Source of the DNA: Sphingomonas parva (ex Maeng et al. 2020)
Lineage (GTDB): Bacteria > Pseudomonadota > Alphaproteobacteria > Sphingomonadales > Sphingomonadaceae
Length of the DNA stretch: 41,888 nt
Reading direction: 5' to 3'
Assembly (NCBI RefSeq): GCF_004564275.1
Contig: NZ_SPDV01000055.1
Span: 1 to 41,888 of the forward strand
The position numbers were made by a program, and so were the translations under genes. The notes beneath the pieces were generated by a model. It searched no databases. It worked only from the letters and a program-made list of their open reading frames with translations, and was not told the DNA's origin. Shown here in pieces: positions 3,567-12,285 of this stretch (the stretch's first letter is position 1; the number at the start of each line of letters is the position of its first letter).

Positions 3567-5726
3567 CTAGCGCACCGCCCAGGGGTGCTCCCCGGCGAAG
3601 GACGCGACCGTCGTCACCTCCGGCACCTTCCCCAGCACGATCGACAGGCCGCCCGTCCGGGCGAGCAACGCCCGGTCCGCCTTCAGCCAGCGCGGGCGGC
3701 AGGTGACCGGCAGCCGCCGGTCCGAGACGACGATGTCGGCCTCCGCGCAGGCGCGCCGCAGCGGATCGAAATCGACGAGATAGGGCGAGCGGGTGGCGAG
3801 CACCCGCCAGCGCGTGCCGTGGCGAATCACCTCGGCAGCGCACAGGTCCGGGCTGCACGATGCGCCGGCCAGGCTCTCGAGCTCGCGCGGCTCGCCTCCG
3901 ATCCCGGCATTTTCCGACAAAGTGTCGCGCACGTAATCGCCGGCGCGCGGCCGCAGGATGGCGAGGCCGTCGCCGGTCCGCACCGCGAGATGGGCGCCGT
4001 CGCCGGTGACGAGCAGGTCCGGCGCCGGGGTGGCGAGCGCCCAGGCCGCGCCGGCCAGGATCGGCAGCAGACCGGCGATCCGCCAGCGGGTCCGCCACAG
4101 GGCCAGCCACAGCCCTCCTGCGACCAGGCAGGCGAACGCGCCGCGCGGAAGCGCGGGCAGCATCGCGACCGCGCCCGGCGCCGCGGCGACGGCGTGCGCA
4201 AGCCAGAGCAGGAAGGCGAGCGCGCGACCGGCCAGCCACCAGAAAGGCGCCGACAGGCCGAGCGGATCGGCGGCGAGCGCGAGAGCCTCCAGCGGCATGA
4301 TCACGAAGGTGGTGAGCGGGATGGCGACGATGTTGGCGAGCGCGCCGTAGAGCCCCGCCTGGTGGAAATGGAACAGGGCGATCGGGATCAGCGCCAGCTC
4401 GACGGCGAGTCCGGTGAGCACCAGACCGGCGATCAGCCGCAGCAGCTTCAGCGGCAGCGCCTCGTCGCGCCGTGCCACGAAGGCACGCACCCGCGGATGG
4501 TCGTGCAGCACGACGATCGCCACGATCGCCGCGAAGCTCATCTGGAAGGATGGGCCGACGAGGCTCTCCGGCCAGACCAGCAGGACGATCAGCGCGCCGA
4601 CCGCGACCAGGCGAAGCGTCAGCGCGTCTCGCCCCAACGCGATGCCGGCGAGCACGAGGATCGCGGCGATGCAGGAGCGGATCGTCGGCACCTCGGCGCC
4701 GGTGAACAGCGTATAGGCGATGCCGGCCGCCGCGCCGACGCCGGCGGCGATCACCACCAGGCGGAAGCGCAGCGCCAAGGCCGGGCTCAGCGCCAGCAGC
4801 TTCAGCGTCAGCAGCATCACCGCGCCGACCACTGCGGTGAGGTGCAGGCCGCTGACCGAGAGCAGGTGCGCGAGGCCCGAGCGGCGCATCGCCTCCGCAT
4901 CCGCTTCGGGAATGCCGCCCTGGTCGCCGGTGGCGAGCGCCGCGGCGATGCCCCCTTCCCCGCCCGGCAGGCGCCTGCGCACATGATCGGCAAGGCTCTG
5001 TCGCGCGGACGCGAGGCGCGCCCGCCACCCGCGTCGCCGCGGCGGATCGGTGACCGTAACCTCGAGCGCGCGTGCGGTCGCCCCCAGCCGCTGGAACCAG
5101 GCGGCACGCGCGAAATCATAGGCACCCGGCACCGCCGGCGGCGGCGGCGGCATCAGCCAGGCGCGGACCGCCACGATCGCCTCCGCCTCGAGGTCGGGAG
5201 GCGCCTTCTCCTCGTCGAGGTTCAAGCGGATGCGCTCGGGCAGCCGCGCCGCCGCGCCGCGGCGATCGACCTTCACCACCAGGCGGACGATCTCCTCGGC
5301 AGGCAGGCGCTGCAGCGATTCGACCGTCGCGTCGAAGGTGGCGACGCCCTCGCGCCGCAGCACCGGCGCCGCGACACGCTCGGCCTTCCACCAGATGTTG
5401 GCGCAGCCGATCAGGGCGGCGAGCCAGAAGAGGGCGAGCGCCCGCGCCCAGCGCGTCTCGGCGGCGGCCGCGAAGCACGCCGCCGCCGTACCGCCGGCGA
5501 ACAGCAGGAAGGCGGTCCAGGCGGGCGCGCTCGGCAGGACGAACCAGGCGGCGGTGCCGAGGCCGAGACCGACCGGCAGCCAGAGCGGAAGCTGGTCGCG
5601 CTCGGCATCGGCCAGCGCATCGAGCCGCGCCGAGCGCCGGGAGAGCGCGGCGCGAAGCCCGGCCGCCAAGCCCCTTGGTGGCGGCTCGTCCGCTATGCTA
5701 GGGGCGCATCCGTCACTGGCGGCCAT
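3567..5726 (-). CDS. comEC: ComEC/Rec2 family DNA-uptake channel protein
   Basis: Polytopic inner-membrane protein of 719 residues, the predicted channel that carries single-stranded DNA across the membrane in natural transformation. N-terminal helices (about 45-110) precede a DUF4131-like periplasmic region with PPPPPAVPGAYDFARAAWFQ (193-212), then the competence domain with the signature HLLSVSGLHL (287-296) and many membrane helices. The C-terminus lacks a recognisable metallo-beta-lactamase motif and ends in a short soluble tail, which is common in this group. The ATG at 5726 has AAGGA seven bases upstream; a frame extending to 5849 would overlap gltX. Start codons of comEC and gltX lie 26 bases apart head-to-head. 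No other competence genes are in the window. Confidence 0.92.
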   Translation of the reverse strand: MAASDGCAPSIADEPPPRGLAAGLRAALSRRSARLDALADAERDQLPLWLPVGLGLGTAAWFVLPSAPAWTAFLLFAGGTAAACFAAAAETRWARALALFWLAALIGCANIWWKAERVAAPVLRREGVATFDATVESLQRLPAEEIVRLVVKVDRRGAAARLPERIRLNLDEEKAPPDLEAEAIVAVRAWLMPPPPPAVPGAYDFARAAWFQRLGATARALEVTVTDPPRRRGWRARLASARQSLADHVRRRLPGGEGGIAAALATGDQGGIPEADAEAMRRSGLAHLLSVSGLHLTAVVGAVMLLTLKLLALSPALALRFRLVVIAAGVGAAAGIAYTLFTGAEVPTIRSCIAAILVLAGIALGRDALTLRLVAVGALIVLLVWPESLVGPSFQMSFAAIVAIVVLHDHPRVRAFVARRDEALPLKLLRLIAGLVLTGLAVELALIPIALFHFHQAGLYGALANIVAIPLTTFVIMPLEALALAADPLGLSAPFWWLAGRALAFLLWLAHAVAAAPGAVAMLPALPRGAFACLVAGGLWLALWRTRWRIAGLLPILAGAAWALATPAPDLLVTGDGAHLAVRTGDGLAILRPRAGDYVRDTLSENAGIGGEPRELESLAGASCSPDLCAAEVIRHGTRWRVLATRSPYLVDFDPLRRACAEADIVVSDRRLPVTCRPRWLKADRALLARTGGLSIVLGKVPEVTTVASFAGEHPWAVR

Positions 5727-9618: not shown

Positions 9619-10278
9619 ATGAAGAGCCTCATCCTTGCCCTGCTGTTTGCGTCCGCGGCACCGGCCGCCGCCGCACCGGCCTCGGAGCCGAGCCTCGACG
9701 ATGTCCGCGCCGCCACCGAGCGCTTCAAGGACGTCAAGGTCGCGCTCGCCGAGGGCTATCTCGCCGATCCCGAGAACATCTGCCACACTGCCGCGCACAT
9801 GGGCCGCGACGCCAAGCTCGGCGGCATGGGCATCCATTATTTCCGCCCGGACCTGCTCGGCATCACGGCGCCGCCGAACCCGCGGATCGGCGGCGAAGGC
9901 GTGCACACCGATTTCCGCAAGCCGGCGATCCTGATCTACGAGCCCAATGCCAAGGGCGAGCTCGAGCTGATCGCGGTCGAGAACCTCGTCTTCGAGAAAG
10001 CGTGGCGCGCCTCAGGCAAGACCCAGCCGCCGACCTTCCAGGGCCAGACCTTCGACCACATGGTCGACGATCCGGCGACCGCGGAGGACGAGGCGCACAA
10101 TTTTGAGCCGCATTACGATCTGCACGTCTGGCTCTACCGGCCGAACCCGGCGGGCATGTTCAAGCCGTTCAACCCGAATGTCACCTGCCAGTACAGCAAG
10201 CCGGCGCAAATGGCGCATGCCGGCCATGCCGGCCATGCCGGCGGCCAGGAGAGCCATACCGCGCACTCGGGCCACTAG
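9619..10278 (+). CDS. Secreted protein with histidine-rich tail, unknown function
   Basis: A 219-residue protein with a clear signal peptide (MKSLILALLFASAAPAAAA, cleavage about residue 19). The mature part has ENICHTAAHMGRDAKLGGMGIHYFRPDLL, here seen as ICHTAAHMG and GIHYFRPDLL, rich in His and Met, and ends in a Gly-Ala-His repeat tail (AGHAGHAGGQESHTAHSGH). This suggests a periplasmic or exported metal-binding protein, but no family is named with confidence. The ATG at 9619 begins the signal peptide; an upstream frame from 9487 adds only an implausible basic leader. A seven-base hairpin (9577-9596) lies in its leader. The tail is encoded by tandem copies of a nine-base unit around 10211-10240. 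Confidence 0.7.
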   Translation: MKSLILALLFASAAPAAAAPASEPSLDDVRAATERFKDVKVALAEGYLADPENICHTAAHMGRDAKLGGMGIHYFRPDLLGITAPPNPRIGGEGVHTDFRKPAILIYEPNAKGELELIAVENLVFEKAWRASGKTQPPTFQGQTFDHMVDDPATAEDEAHNFEPHYDLHVWLYRPNPAGMFKPFNPNVTCQYSKPAQMAHAGHAGHAGGQESHTAHSGH

Positions 10279-10344
10279 CACAGGGCGTGATCGACGCTCC
10301 GGCGGCCCTGCCAACAGTGCCATGCCGGACGATCGCGCTCTCGC

Positions 10345-10384
10345 ACGCGTCCCCCCGCCCCGCCCCTCCCGCGGGGGGACGCGT
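10345..10384 (+). terminator. Long perfect hairpin with C-rich loop after the secreted protein gene
   Basis: Arms ACGCGTCCCCCCGC (10345-10358) and GCGGGGGGACGCGT (10371-10384) are perfectly complementary over 14 bases; the 12-base loop is CCCGCCCCTCCC. There is no T-tract on the plus strand, so it may stabilise the mRNA 3' end rather than terminate on its own. Confidence 0.5.
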
Positions 10385-10403
10385 CACAACCGAGGCGACC
10401 GAT

Positions 10404-10486
10404 AAAGTAAAAGCCCCAGCCGTTTCCGGCCGGGGCTTGGTTGGTAGTCACGGGGGGGGGGAGGTGACTACCAGCGGGGGGGTACT
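10404..10486 (-). ncRNA. Predicted C-rich-loop small RNA under an EcfG-type promoter
   Basis: About 83 nucleotides. From its 5' end: a single-stranded C7 run (10482-10476); a perfect ten-base stem UGGUAGUCAC/GUGACUACCA (10473-10464 with 10451-10442) whose 12-base loop is CUCC followed by eight Cs; three linking bases; and an intrinsic terminator with an 11-base stem (10438-10411) and a U-rich tail. The loop can pair with G-rich Shine-Dalgarno sequences, so a role in post-transcriptional repression or mRNA protection is inferred. A GGAAC-N16-CGTT promoter is placed so that the transcript starts near 10486. Similar logic is known for GsrN of Caulobacter (sigma-T-dependent, cytosine-rich loop); sequence homology is not claimed. 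Confidence 0.65.
10411..10438 (-). terminator. Intrinsic terminator of the small RNA
   Basis: On the minus strand the stem AAGCCCCGGCC/GGCTGGGGCTT (one G-T pair) has a six-base loop GGAAAC and runs into TTTTACTTTA, a convincing T-tract for so GC-rich a genome. Confidence 0.8.
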
Positions 10487-10491
10487 GGCAG

Positions 10492-10516
10492 AACGAGCAC
10501 CCCTCGATGGGGTTCC
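10492..10516 (-). promoter_or_regulatory. EcfG (general stress response) type promoter
   Basis: On the minus strand GGAAC (10516-10512), 16 bases, CGTT (10495-10492), matching the alphaproteobacterial EcfG consensus GGAAC-N16/17-CGTT exactly. It directs transcription into the small RNA. No other match with this spacing was noticed upstream of a gene in the window. Confidence 0.6.
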
Positions 10517-10640
10517 CGGCAATTGACGATCGAGATGACGATCAAGGCGAATTTCCCGCGAGGCGTGCGCGAGGCGCGATGAGCCGCAGCAATCGGGCGG
10601 GCGAGGCAGACAAAAGGCGGCCAGGCCGCGCCGATCAGGC

Positions 10641-10676
10641 AAAACGAAGCGCCCCGGAATGGCTCCGGAGCGCTTC
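10641..10676 (-). terminator. Second minus-strand intrinsic terminator
   Basis: Thirteen-base arms with one mismatch (10646-10658 and 10664-10676) around a five-base loop, followed on the minus strand by GTTTTGCC. It lies 245 bases beyond the histidine kinase stop and would end either that mRNA or a separate transcript beginning in the gap. Confidence 0.65.
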
Positions 10677-10882
10677 GCCGACAGTCCGCCATCCCGGCGA
10701 CTATCTCCCGTCCCCGTGACCGGTTCTACACGATTCGAGCCGGATTTGGGAGTGCCGGGGCGCGCCCGCGGTTCAGGACGGCGCGCCAGACAGTCGCTCC
10801 GGCGCAACCGGCCTGACTCGTGCGAACGTCTGCGCGCGACCCTTGAATCACCAAAATCGTGCAAGCTCAATGACTTGGCAAC

Positions 10883-10896
10883 TTGATCAAGATCAA
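10883..10896. promoter_or_regulatory. FNR/CRP-family binding site, perfect palindrome
   Basis: TTGAT-CAAG-ATCAA equals the FNR consensus TTGAT-N4-ATCAA at all ten fixed positions. It lies 25 bases beyond the kinase gene end, so it does not precede that gene; a minus-strand transcript beginning near 10848 and ending at the 10641 terminator would place it near -41. Confidence 0.5.
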
Positions 10897-10920
10897 GAAA
10901 CGCCTACGGGCGAGTCGCGC

Positions 10921-12285
10921 CTAGCTGCGGCGGAGCGGCAGCGTGAAGGTGAACCGGGCCCCCTGCCCCGGCGCGCTGTCGACGCCGAGATCGCCGCCCA
11001 TCGCCCGCGCCAGGCGCCGCGCGATGTACAGGCCGAGCCCGGTGCCTCCCGGCTCCGACGGATCGACCCGCTCGAACTTCTCGAACACGCGCGCCTGATC
11101 CTCGGCGGCGATGCCCTTGCCCTGGTCGGCGACGATCAGCACGGCGAGATCGCCCTCGCGGTCGGTCCGCACCCAGACGCTGCCGCCCTGCGGGGAATAG
11201 CGTATCGCATTGGTCAGCAGGTTCATCACGATCTGCAGCGCCCGCTTGAACTCGCCATAGGCAGGCACGGTGTCGTATTCAGCCGGGACGTCGATCCGCA
11301 CCGCGCGCTCGGCGGCGCGGACGGAGAGCAGGCCGGCGGCCCGCCGCGCGACGTCGGCGAGGTCGATCTCCTCCCGCTCGGGCGCGAAGTCGGGCCGCTC
11401 AATCGCCTGGAGGTCCACCAGATCGTCGACCAGAGCGAGCAGGTGGCGCCCGGCCGCGGCGATGTCGCCCGCATAGCCGGCATAATCGGTGCGCAGCGGC
11501 CCTTCCGGCTGTGCGCCGATCGTCTCGGCGTTGCGGATGATATGGGCGAGCGGCGCGCGCAGGGCGCGGTCGAGCCGCTCCGAAAAGGCGCCATTGTCCT
11601 TCTGCGGCTCGGGCGGCTGCACCGGCGCCGGTTCCGAGACGAGGCTCGTCGCCGAGCCGCGGAAGCCGGAGAAACGGCCGTCGCCGTCGATCAACGGCAC
11701 GCCGGCAAGGCGGTAGCGTTGGCTGCGGCCGCCGCGCAGCTGGGCGATCTGGCCGTCGAATCGCCGCTGCTCGGCGAGAGCGGAGAGCAAGGGGAGCACC
11801 CCCTCCTTCTCCTCCTCGAGCCGGAACAATTGGGTGAGCGGCTGGCCGATCAATGCGGCCGGGGCCTGGCCGGCCGCCGCTGCGGCGGCCGGGGAGAGGA
11901 CGGTGAAGCGCAGCGCCTGGTCGGTTTCCCACATCCAGTCCGCGCCGGCGCGCAGGAAGTCCGCCTGCCGCTCCGCCTCGGCCGCCGGCGCCGGGCCGCG
12001 CGCCGGACGGATCGTCCAGCCGGAAATGGCGAGATCGACGGCGCCGCTCTCGGCCGGCACCGCCCGCACCCAGAGGTCGAGATCGGCGTCGCCGTCGGCG
12101 GCGACCGCGGCGCGCGAGATGGTGAGGCCAAGACGCCGCGCCAGCCGGGCCAGCGACGCGATCTGCGGAACGGCGAGCGGTCCCCCGCTGTCTCCGCCGG
12201 CAGCCTGCTGGAGCGCGAGCAGGCGCGCGTCGGCCGAGATCAGCCGCCCGTCCGGATCGAGCCGGCCGTGGACGACGTCGTTCAC
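10921..12285 (-). CDS. PAS-containing histidine kinase-like protein lacking the phosphoacceptor His
   Basis: A 454-residue soluble kinase-like protein. An N-terminal region of unknown type (1-105) precedes a PAS domain (about 108-215, beginning FLRAGADWMWETD) and a DHp/HATPase module. The DHp sequence is LDRALRAPLAHIIRNAE: where the H-box has S-H-E-L-R-x-P-L, this has D-R-A-L-R-A-P-L, so the phosphoacceptor is Arg240. The ATPase parts look intact: N box Asn355/Asn359, G1 Asp387 in DQGKGI, G2 GGTGLGL (413-419). DivL-type pseudo-kinases are a precedent. The GTG start at 12285 overlaps the stop of the DUF2336 gene as GTGA, so the two are coupled. A longer frame upstream is a shadow of that gene. 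Confidence 0.88.
   Translation of the reverse strand: MNDVVHGRLDPDGRLISADARLLALQQAAGGDSGGPLAVPQIASLARLARRLGLTISRAAVAADGDADLDLWVRAVPAESGAVDLAISGWTIRPARGPAPAAEAERQADFLRAGADWMWETDQALRFTVLSPAAAAAAGQAPAALIGQPLTQLFRLEEEKEGVLPLLSALAEQRRFDGQIAQLRGGRSQRYRLAGVPLIDGDGRFSGFRGSATSLVSEPAPVQPPEPQKDNGAFSERLDRALRAPLAHIIRNAETIGAQPEGPLRTDYAGYAGDIAAAGRHLLALVDDLVDLQAIERPDFAPEREEIDLADVARRAAGLLSVRAAERAVRIDVPAEYDTVPAYGEFKRALQIVMNLLTNAIRYSPQGGSVWVRTDREGDLAVLIVADQGKGIAAEDQARVFEKFERVDPSEPGGTGLGLYIARRLARAMGGDLGVDSAPGQGARFTFTLPLRRS

Follow-up and report, generated by a model that had tools for sequence, protein, structure and literature searches.

Does a short gap between two genes of Sphingomonas parva hold a small RNA (sRNA) gene of the general stress response (GSR), and is that RNA a homologue of GsrN? 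The gap lies in contig NZ_SPDV01000055.1, which is 41,888 nucleotides long and was analysed whole (the window), and is bounded on the side of lower coordinates by a 263-aa ORF on the plus strand, which ends at 10278 and matches no Pfam or NCBIfam family, and on the other side by a sensor histidine-kinase gene on the minus strand, which ends at 10921; a mechanical TTG ORF at 10448-10870 (-) overlaps the predicted RNA. The sequence-only reading had described, in order on the minus strand, a promoter, a C7 run, a ten-base hairpin with a loop of CUCC plus C8 and a terminator, and re-reading confirms all of them in that order (Table 1). In the hairpin, 10473-10464 pairs with 10451-10442 around the loop CUCCCCCCCCCC at 10463-10452, and the terminator, which a terminator scan also detects, runs into the tail UUUUACUUU. 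RNAfold gives 10486-10404 an energy of -40.7 kcal/mol, a stability equalled by 0 of 200 shuffles; the transcript would have its ends near these two positions. No tRNAs were found in the window, its Rfam scan returned 0 families at the gathering threshold, and a promoter scan of 10250-10950 gave no sigma-70-like promoter. Just downstream of the sRNA, at 10345-10384, there is also a perfect 14-bp hairpin, whose loop reads as C-rich on the plus strand (CCCGCCCCTCCC) and as G-rich on the minus; by eye, it is not evident in the corresponding flank of the same-genus genome G001.

Table 1. Coordinates of the features discussed, in the window unless a contig or locus is named (G000, the window's own genome).
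Feature	Position	Strand	Basis
EcfG-type promoter, GGAAC-N16-CGTT	10492..10516	-	Exact match to the EcfG consensus
Predicted C-loop small RNA, window copy, ~83 nt	10404..10486	-	RNAfold z -6.5 and covariance-model family of 21; ends inferred
Unpaired 5' C7 run	10476..10482	-	Direct reading
C-rich hairpin, 10-bp stem, 12-nt loop CUCC+C8	10442..10473	-	Reading, fold, compensatory changes
Intrinsic terminator and U-rich tail	10404..10438 (stem 10438-10411, 12 bp)	-	Fold, terminator scan, compensatory changes
Candidate partner RNA: G-rich 5' tail GGGGACGGGAG, small hairpin, strong terminator	10642..10715	-	Fold and recurrence
G-rich tail, predicted pairing with the C-loop	10705..10715	-	Duplex prediction
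GSR-locus RNA	G000:C20 ~9546-9414 (= L130:5414-5548)	-	EcfG-type promoter and C-rich hairpin loops

Taken by itself, the promoter motif is no better than chance. With GGAAC-N16-CGTT as the consensus, the exact motif (spacer 15-18) has one match in the window against 0.66 expected, and at least one in 46 of 100 shuffles; across the own genome (spacer 16-17) it occurs 53 times against 47 for a reversed-pattern control. The motif was therefore not used as evidence, and conservation was used instead. A covariance model, R1, was made from the transcribed part alone, with nine copies that carry the exact promoter as its training set; because the promoter was excluded from the model, it provides an independent test of the copies. 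The comparison set comprised 26 same-genus genomes, in seven of which a DNA search gives matches. An R1 search of these genomes, with laxer scoring and up to 150 candidates per genome, is bimodal: 11 genomes together hold 21 places that score 40-97 bits, and the next best scores 35.2 bits; a copy at 40 bits or more is absent from 15 of the 26 in this covariance-model search. G013 carries four copies, G020 and G023 three each, G000, G001 and G007 two each, and G005, G014, G015, G018 and G019 one each, the second copy of the own genome (G000:C5:5268-5362, minus strand) scoring 80 bits and having an exact promoter. In all 21 copies GGAAC-N16-NGTT is in register, its offset from the model start ranging from -3 to +4 nt, and the variants affect the first base of CGTT only (16 exact, four TGTT, one AGTT). 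Among the 12 copies outside the R1 training set the promoter is likewise in register in every case (seven exact, five with one change). As a control, 12 of the 14 listed model matches below 36 bits were inspected, and none of the 12 has at least eight of the nine promoter bases in register: a match in G006 has seven in register, and one in G020 has eight but 42 nt off. As judged by conservation, that is, by 21 copies of at least 40 bits with the promoter in register, the arrangement as a whole exceeds chance.

Searches beyond the genus were read together with the promoter. R1 was run on 397 genomes of the family with strict filters and 10 candidates scored per genome, and 172 genomes match at E 0.01; in the 30 loci read from this search, the promoter is present in the window copy and in G005 only, and 172/397 is not taken as the distribution. 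The three out-of-genus matches above 40 bits (G355, G302 and G101) lack such a promoter and were read as 3'-UTR terminators. A pattern of promoter plus C5 matches in 84 of the 397 family genomes, and its reversed control also matches in many; among 30 such places folded with their loci, the own second copy alone fits. A stricter pattern of promoter, C5 and stem, run on a broader contig collection from which the own genome or near records were possibly left out, returned 27 stretches, of which six, from G001, G020 and G013, are real by model R2, the remaining 21 being read as chance.

The stems of the 21 copies change by compensation. In an unfitted MAFFT alignment of nine copies, the share of paired cells is 96.9% and covariation scores 0.240, compared with 0.122 after shuffling, both values being reached by 0 of 500 shuffles, and both-side changes occur in 5 of 22 pairs, a number reached by 24 of 500 shuffles. 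When all 21 copies are aligned to the model, an alignment that is fitted and so leans toward structure, both-side changes occur in 18 of 22 pairs, 96.5% of cells pair and the score is 0.377 against 0.165, each again reached by 0 of 500 shuffles. In this set, compensatory changes are found in nine of the ten modelled pairs of the C-rich hairpin and in nine of the 12 pairs of the terminator stem, while the hairpin loop stays 67-100% C. The sequence-only reading had staked its case on a covariance search of the transcribed part and on compensatory stem changes in relatives, both of which speak for it; its general-stress sRNA gene, with a C-rich loop left exposed, draws strong support from conservation, from which expression and use of EcfG are predicted, and what falls away is the promoter motif as evidence in its own right. 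Sequence conservation thus points to a new family of putatively EcfG-promoted C-loop RNA genes that is real and conserved, and that is a variation on a known type of RNA.

We consider it probable that these are multicopy, EcfG-driven, trans-acting C-loop sRNAs that are GsrN-like in action. The own genome contains the GSR regulators: PhyR and NepR score above curated cut-offs, the GSR kinase matches PhyK weakly, below the cut-off, and an ECF sigma factor is assigned as EcfG by position and domain content. Under stress, NepR would be displaced and EcfG would fire the GGAAC-N16-CGTT promoter, giving an RNA of about 83 nt that would be ended by its own terminator. The stem would serve as a scaffold that presents the C-rich loop, with the unpaired 5' C-run as an aid (ahead of the stem, the longest run measures 3 to 9 in 21/21 copies), and the loop would base-pair with G-rich sites in Shine-Dalgarno and leader regions, so altering translation or stability of the mRNAs that bear them, in the manner of GsrN. 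The window RNA would act beside a separate, more conserved C-loop RNA of the GSR locus. A search of the own genome for G7-N3-20-ATG gives 21 matches (18 distinct sites) against nine for the control and yields no convincing target list, many matches having no convincing gene downstream. It counts against this reading that the C-tracts are low-complexity and that their length varies between copies at the same genomic place, the loop measuring 12 nt in G000, 19 nt in G001 and 23 nt in G007.

GsrN is described as a sigma-T/EcfG-dependent sRNA whose exposed C-tract loop acts on G-rich targets (PMC5869019). The window RNA resembles it in its EcfG-type promoter (in register in 21/21 copies), in the exposed C-tract of its 5' hairpin loop (67-100% C in the family, on a covarying stem) and, by analogy with the pairing of GsrN with the katG leader and other G-rich RNAs, in the G-rich targets expected of it. 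It differs in lying away from the GSR locus, with no adjacency to ecfG, nepR or phyR, and in being multicopy with one C-loop hairpin and a terminator, a comparison made by position and description rather than by sequence alignment. In the own draft assembly the GSR locus is on contig C20 and the window-type copies are on C55 and C5; in G007 both copies lie at least 0.94 Mb from the GSR-locus RNA on a 5.72-Mb contig. As to whether the RNA is a GsrN homologue, a question that the sequence-only reading had raised, no positional link between the window RNA and GsrN was found, and the GSR locus holds a different C-loop RNA with a predicted EcfG promoter. GsrN homologues are reported in Caulobacteraceae, where gsrN is typically near the GSR locus, C. 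crescentus excepted, and GsrN-like RNAs are predicted in Rhizobiaceae (PMC5869019). Because the GSR-locus RNA sits where gsrN typically sits in Caulobacteraceae, it, rather than the window RNA, is by genomic position the better counterpart of GsrN.

In the own genome, the GSR-locus RNA sits between the PhyK-like kinase gene and tatC, with an EcfG-type promoter at G000:C20 minus 9546-9522. Its first hairpin is GGAUAGUGA[CCUUUUGCCCCCCCGCUC]UCGCUAUCC, its second is long with the loop CCUCCCCCCCCCC, and a possible third C7 loop precedes a terminator; Rfam gives nothing relevant at this RNA. A DNA search finds it in 25 of the 26 same-genus genomes at E 2.2e-28 or better, the 26th, G018 (87% complete), giving a chance-level match, and in at least 110 of the 397 family genomes, spread over 26 of 91 genera (13 of the 110 in the own genus), at E 1e-6, where the weakest of the 110 matches cover fewer than 50 bases. 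A model search beyond the family, with strict filters, gave matches in two of 387 genomes of the class, both in the window's family, to which six of the 22 genomes listed in that search belong. Forty-two copies were read, 25 from the genus and, from elsewhere, the 17 best of those with loci: 39 have exact promoters with N16 or N17 and three have eight of the nine bases, and from the promoter end to GGAUAG there are 9 nt in 41 copies and 8 nt in one. Over 32 copies, the first hairpin is near-invariant, seven of its nine pairs never varying, and the second has both-side changes in nine of 18 pairs. In a set of 21 loci, the own one and 20 fetched regions, homologues of PhyR, EcfG, the kinase and TatC are all present in 21/21 and NepR is detected in 6/21; the RNA was located by motif in 20/21, always between kinase and TatC. 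Erythrobacter litoralis is, like S. parva, a member of the Sphingomonadales. It is reported to have no apparent gsrN-like gene (PMC5869019), and in this same order our sequence comparison places a predicted EcfG-promoted C-loop RNA at the GSR locus of at least 110 of 397 sampled family genomes, to which a variable set of smaller C-loop RNAs appears to have been added in one genus. Among the matches listed in a search of the open-access literature, read as titles and abstract starts, no EcfG-dependent sRNA of sphingomonads was found, a result that is not proof of absence from print. Two further elements of the GSR locus were seen. Downstream of the GSR-locus RNA, at L130 ~5092-5230 (-), lies a small, entericidin-like lipoprotein ORF. 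Upstream of ecfG, at L130:8830-8970 (+), there is a match to the EcfG-type promoter; its predicted transcript contains CAGGGGGCG a short way 5' of an ATG, a possible C-loop target in the locus itself.

Several other RNAs offer points of comparison. RepG of Helicobacter pylori reads a homopolymeric G-repeat with a C/U-rich loop, whereas in the window family the length-variable tract is the sRNA loop, and no relation between the two is known. The CcsR RNAs carry C-rich hairpin loops. In Rhodobacter sphaeroides, CcsR1-4 arise by processing of a precursor that also carries ccaF1 and are under RpoE/RpoHI/RpoHII (PMC8307010); they share with the window family the existence of homologous stress sRNAs in several copies, but window-type copies are single, each with its own promoter and terminator. 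The nearest Rfam family is alpha-r14 / NfeR1 (RF02344), with which the window RNA shares a C-rich loop with CUCC (anti-Shine-Dalgarno-like) and a terminator; however, the score of the window copy in a search of 751 bases is 38.1 bits (E 1.9e-5), below the gathering score of 58.8. In a joint scan of 18 copies under stricter filters, two copies reached E 0.5 or better against RF02344, with 31.9 and 27.8 bits, and neither was the window copy. Alpha-r14 is described with three hairpins that each carry CCUCCUCCC and with a sigma-70 promoter under LsrB/NtrC (PMC10746234), whereas the window RNA has one C-loop hairpin, a terminator hairpin and an EcfG-type promoter. SisA-D (alpha-r8) of Caulobacter are described as sibling sRNAs with a C-rich, single-stranded seed, UUUCCUCCCU, countered by the G/A-rich sponge RNA CrfA, which is induced by carbon starvation (PMC12559287). 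Sibling C-rich RNAs and a candidate G-rich antagonist are found in the window family as well, which makes SisA-D with CrfA the closest precedent for such an arrangement, although here the seed lies in a hairpin loop, and the sRNA gene and candidate sponge are linked.

That candidate antagonist is a putative RNA upstream of the sRNA on the same strand; 10720-10640 folds with a z of -4.4. Of the 21 window-type copies, 12 have a similar same-strand element in the 400 nt before them, as judged by a mechanical motif search; nine of the 12 tails read GGGG-N1-3-GGGAG, and TATA-like bases precede the tail in most, as read by eye. Between the end of the motif and the sRNA model start there are 29-35 nt in seven of the 12, where the motif abuts the EcfG promoter, and 49, 75, 113, 150 and 150 nt in the others. 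RNAalifold finds both-side changes in eight of 20 pairs of the partner structure. The duplex of GGGG..GGGAG with CUCCC..CCCC is predicted at -17.5 kcal/mol; predicted binding of partners to their cognate C-loop RNAs is -6.0 to -16.0 kcal/mol and falls to -0.8 to -8.1 kcal/mol when the tail is replaced. Among 327 family genomes, with two candidates scored per genome, the own genome gives the sole full-length match and three others match over 28-40 query bases; among fetched loci, partner matches fall at C-loop RNA loci, these loci having mostly been fetched for C-loop RNAs.

These observations raise the possibility that the linked G-rich RNA is the main partner of the C-loop RNA: a constitutive GGGGACGGGAG-tailed RNA would sequester the C-loop RNAs, until the output of EcfG exceeds the partner, and the pair would so set a threshold for the stress response. 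We hold this to be a tentative explanation, one that may well be wrong. The recurrence of the partner in several genomic contexts, its abutment on the promoter in 7/12 copies, its covarying structure, the loss of predicted binding on tail replacement, the full-length match confined to the own genome among the 327, and the precedent of CrfA as sponge of SisA-D (PMC12559287) all favour sequestration. However, any prediction pairs G-rich with C-rich RNAs, nine of the 21 copies have no partner element by the motif search, and the window partner lies 150 nt from the sRNA model start with a weak -10-like site, the promoter scan finding none. In the own genome, moreover, the partner's predicted binding is -12.4 kcal/mol to the window RNA and -15.1 to the second copy, but weaker, -4.2, to the GSR-locus RNA. 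An association between tail type and CUCC in the loop was dropped as support, since it is post hoc, drawn from 12 related sequences and dependent on the definition of the loop (p 0.018 or 0.20). If the partner were a sponge, sRNA and antagonist would have been duplicated together, and control of the stress-response threshold could be tested by deleting one short element.

A wider arrangement of the general stress response in this clade, which we put forward with considerable doubt, would have two layers of C-loop RNAs: a core RNA fixed by phyR-nepR-ecfG, and expandable satellites, many with a cognate G-rich sponge that sets a threshold, the pair being duplicated as a unit under the stress sigma factor. 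It would fit with this conjecture that the first hairpin of the core RNA is nearly invariant and that the satellites share its type of C-loop seed.

Other explanations bear on the trans-acting sRNA reading itself. The C-loop hairpin might mainly titrate an RNA-binding protein (Hfq, a cold-shock or another C-binding protein) instead of pairing with mRNAs, as the loop varies in length and exact C/U pattern and keeps its C-richness, the way a loose protein site might; we find this improbable, the alphaproteobacterial C-rich-seed sRNAs that are described (GsrN, alpha-r14 and SisA-D) being reported to pair with RNAs (PMC5869019, PMC10746234, PMC12559287). It is similarly improbable that the copies are a spreading selfish or passenger RNA-encoding repeat without host function. 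Such a repeat might leave what is seen here, up to four copies in a genome, located at different loci and often preceded by a similar G-rich RNA, but in G000, G001 and G007 both copies keep their places and have an intact promoter and structure: the neighbours of the first are the kinase gene and gltA/gltX, and those of the second are two hybrid-kinase genes. G001 and G007 thereby retain promoter and terminator along with the neighbours, as the sequence-only reading had expected of close relatives. A DNA or terminator element only, whether a poly-C/poly-G i-motif or G-quadruplex or the terminator of the kinase gene with a chance promoter, is very improbable: long C/G tracts, a position 3' of the kinase gene on the same strand and a promoter motif common by chance would suit it, but the promoter is in register in 21/21 copies in differing contexts and the C-loop stem has compensatory changes.

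Two other kinds of RNA-like element were seen along the way. Near position 1500 in each of the loci L024, L027, L032, L036, L039, L042 and L043, from other genera, there is another conserved RNA-like element, in which a strong terminator follows GCCTTTCAGGCATCCTCTCCCAAAACTTC or a near variant, and TTTTCGCACTTGCGA precedes it in most. C-rich-loop hairpins stand just before terminators near position 1500 in each of L016, L017, L018, L034, L037 and L040; they seemingly lie in the 3' UTRs of genes and are possible UTR-derived C-loop RNAs.
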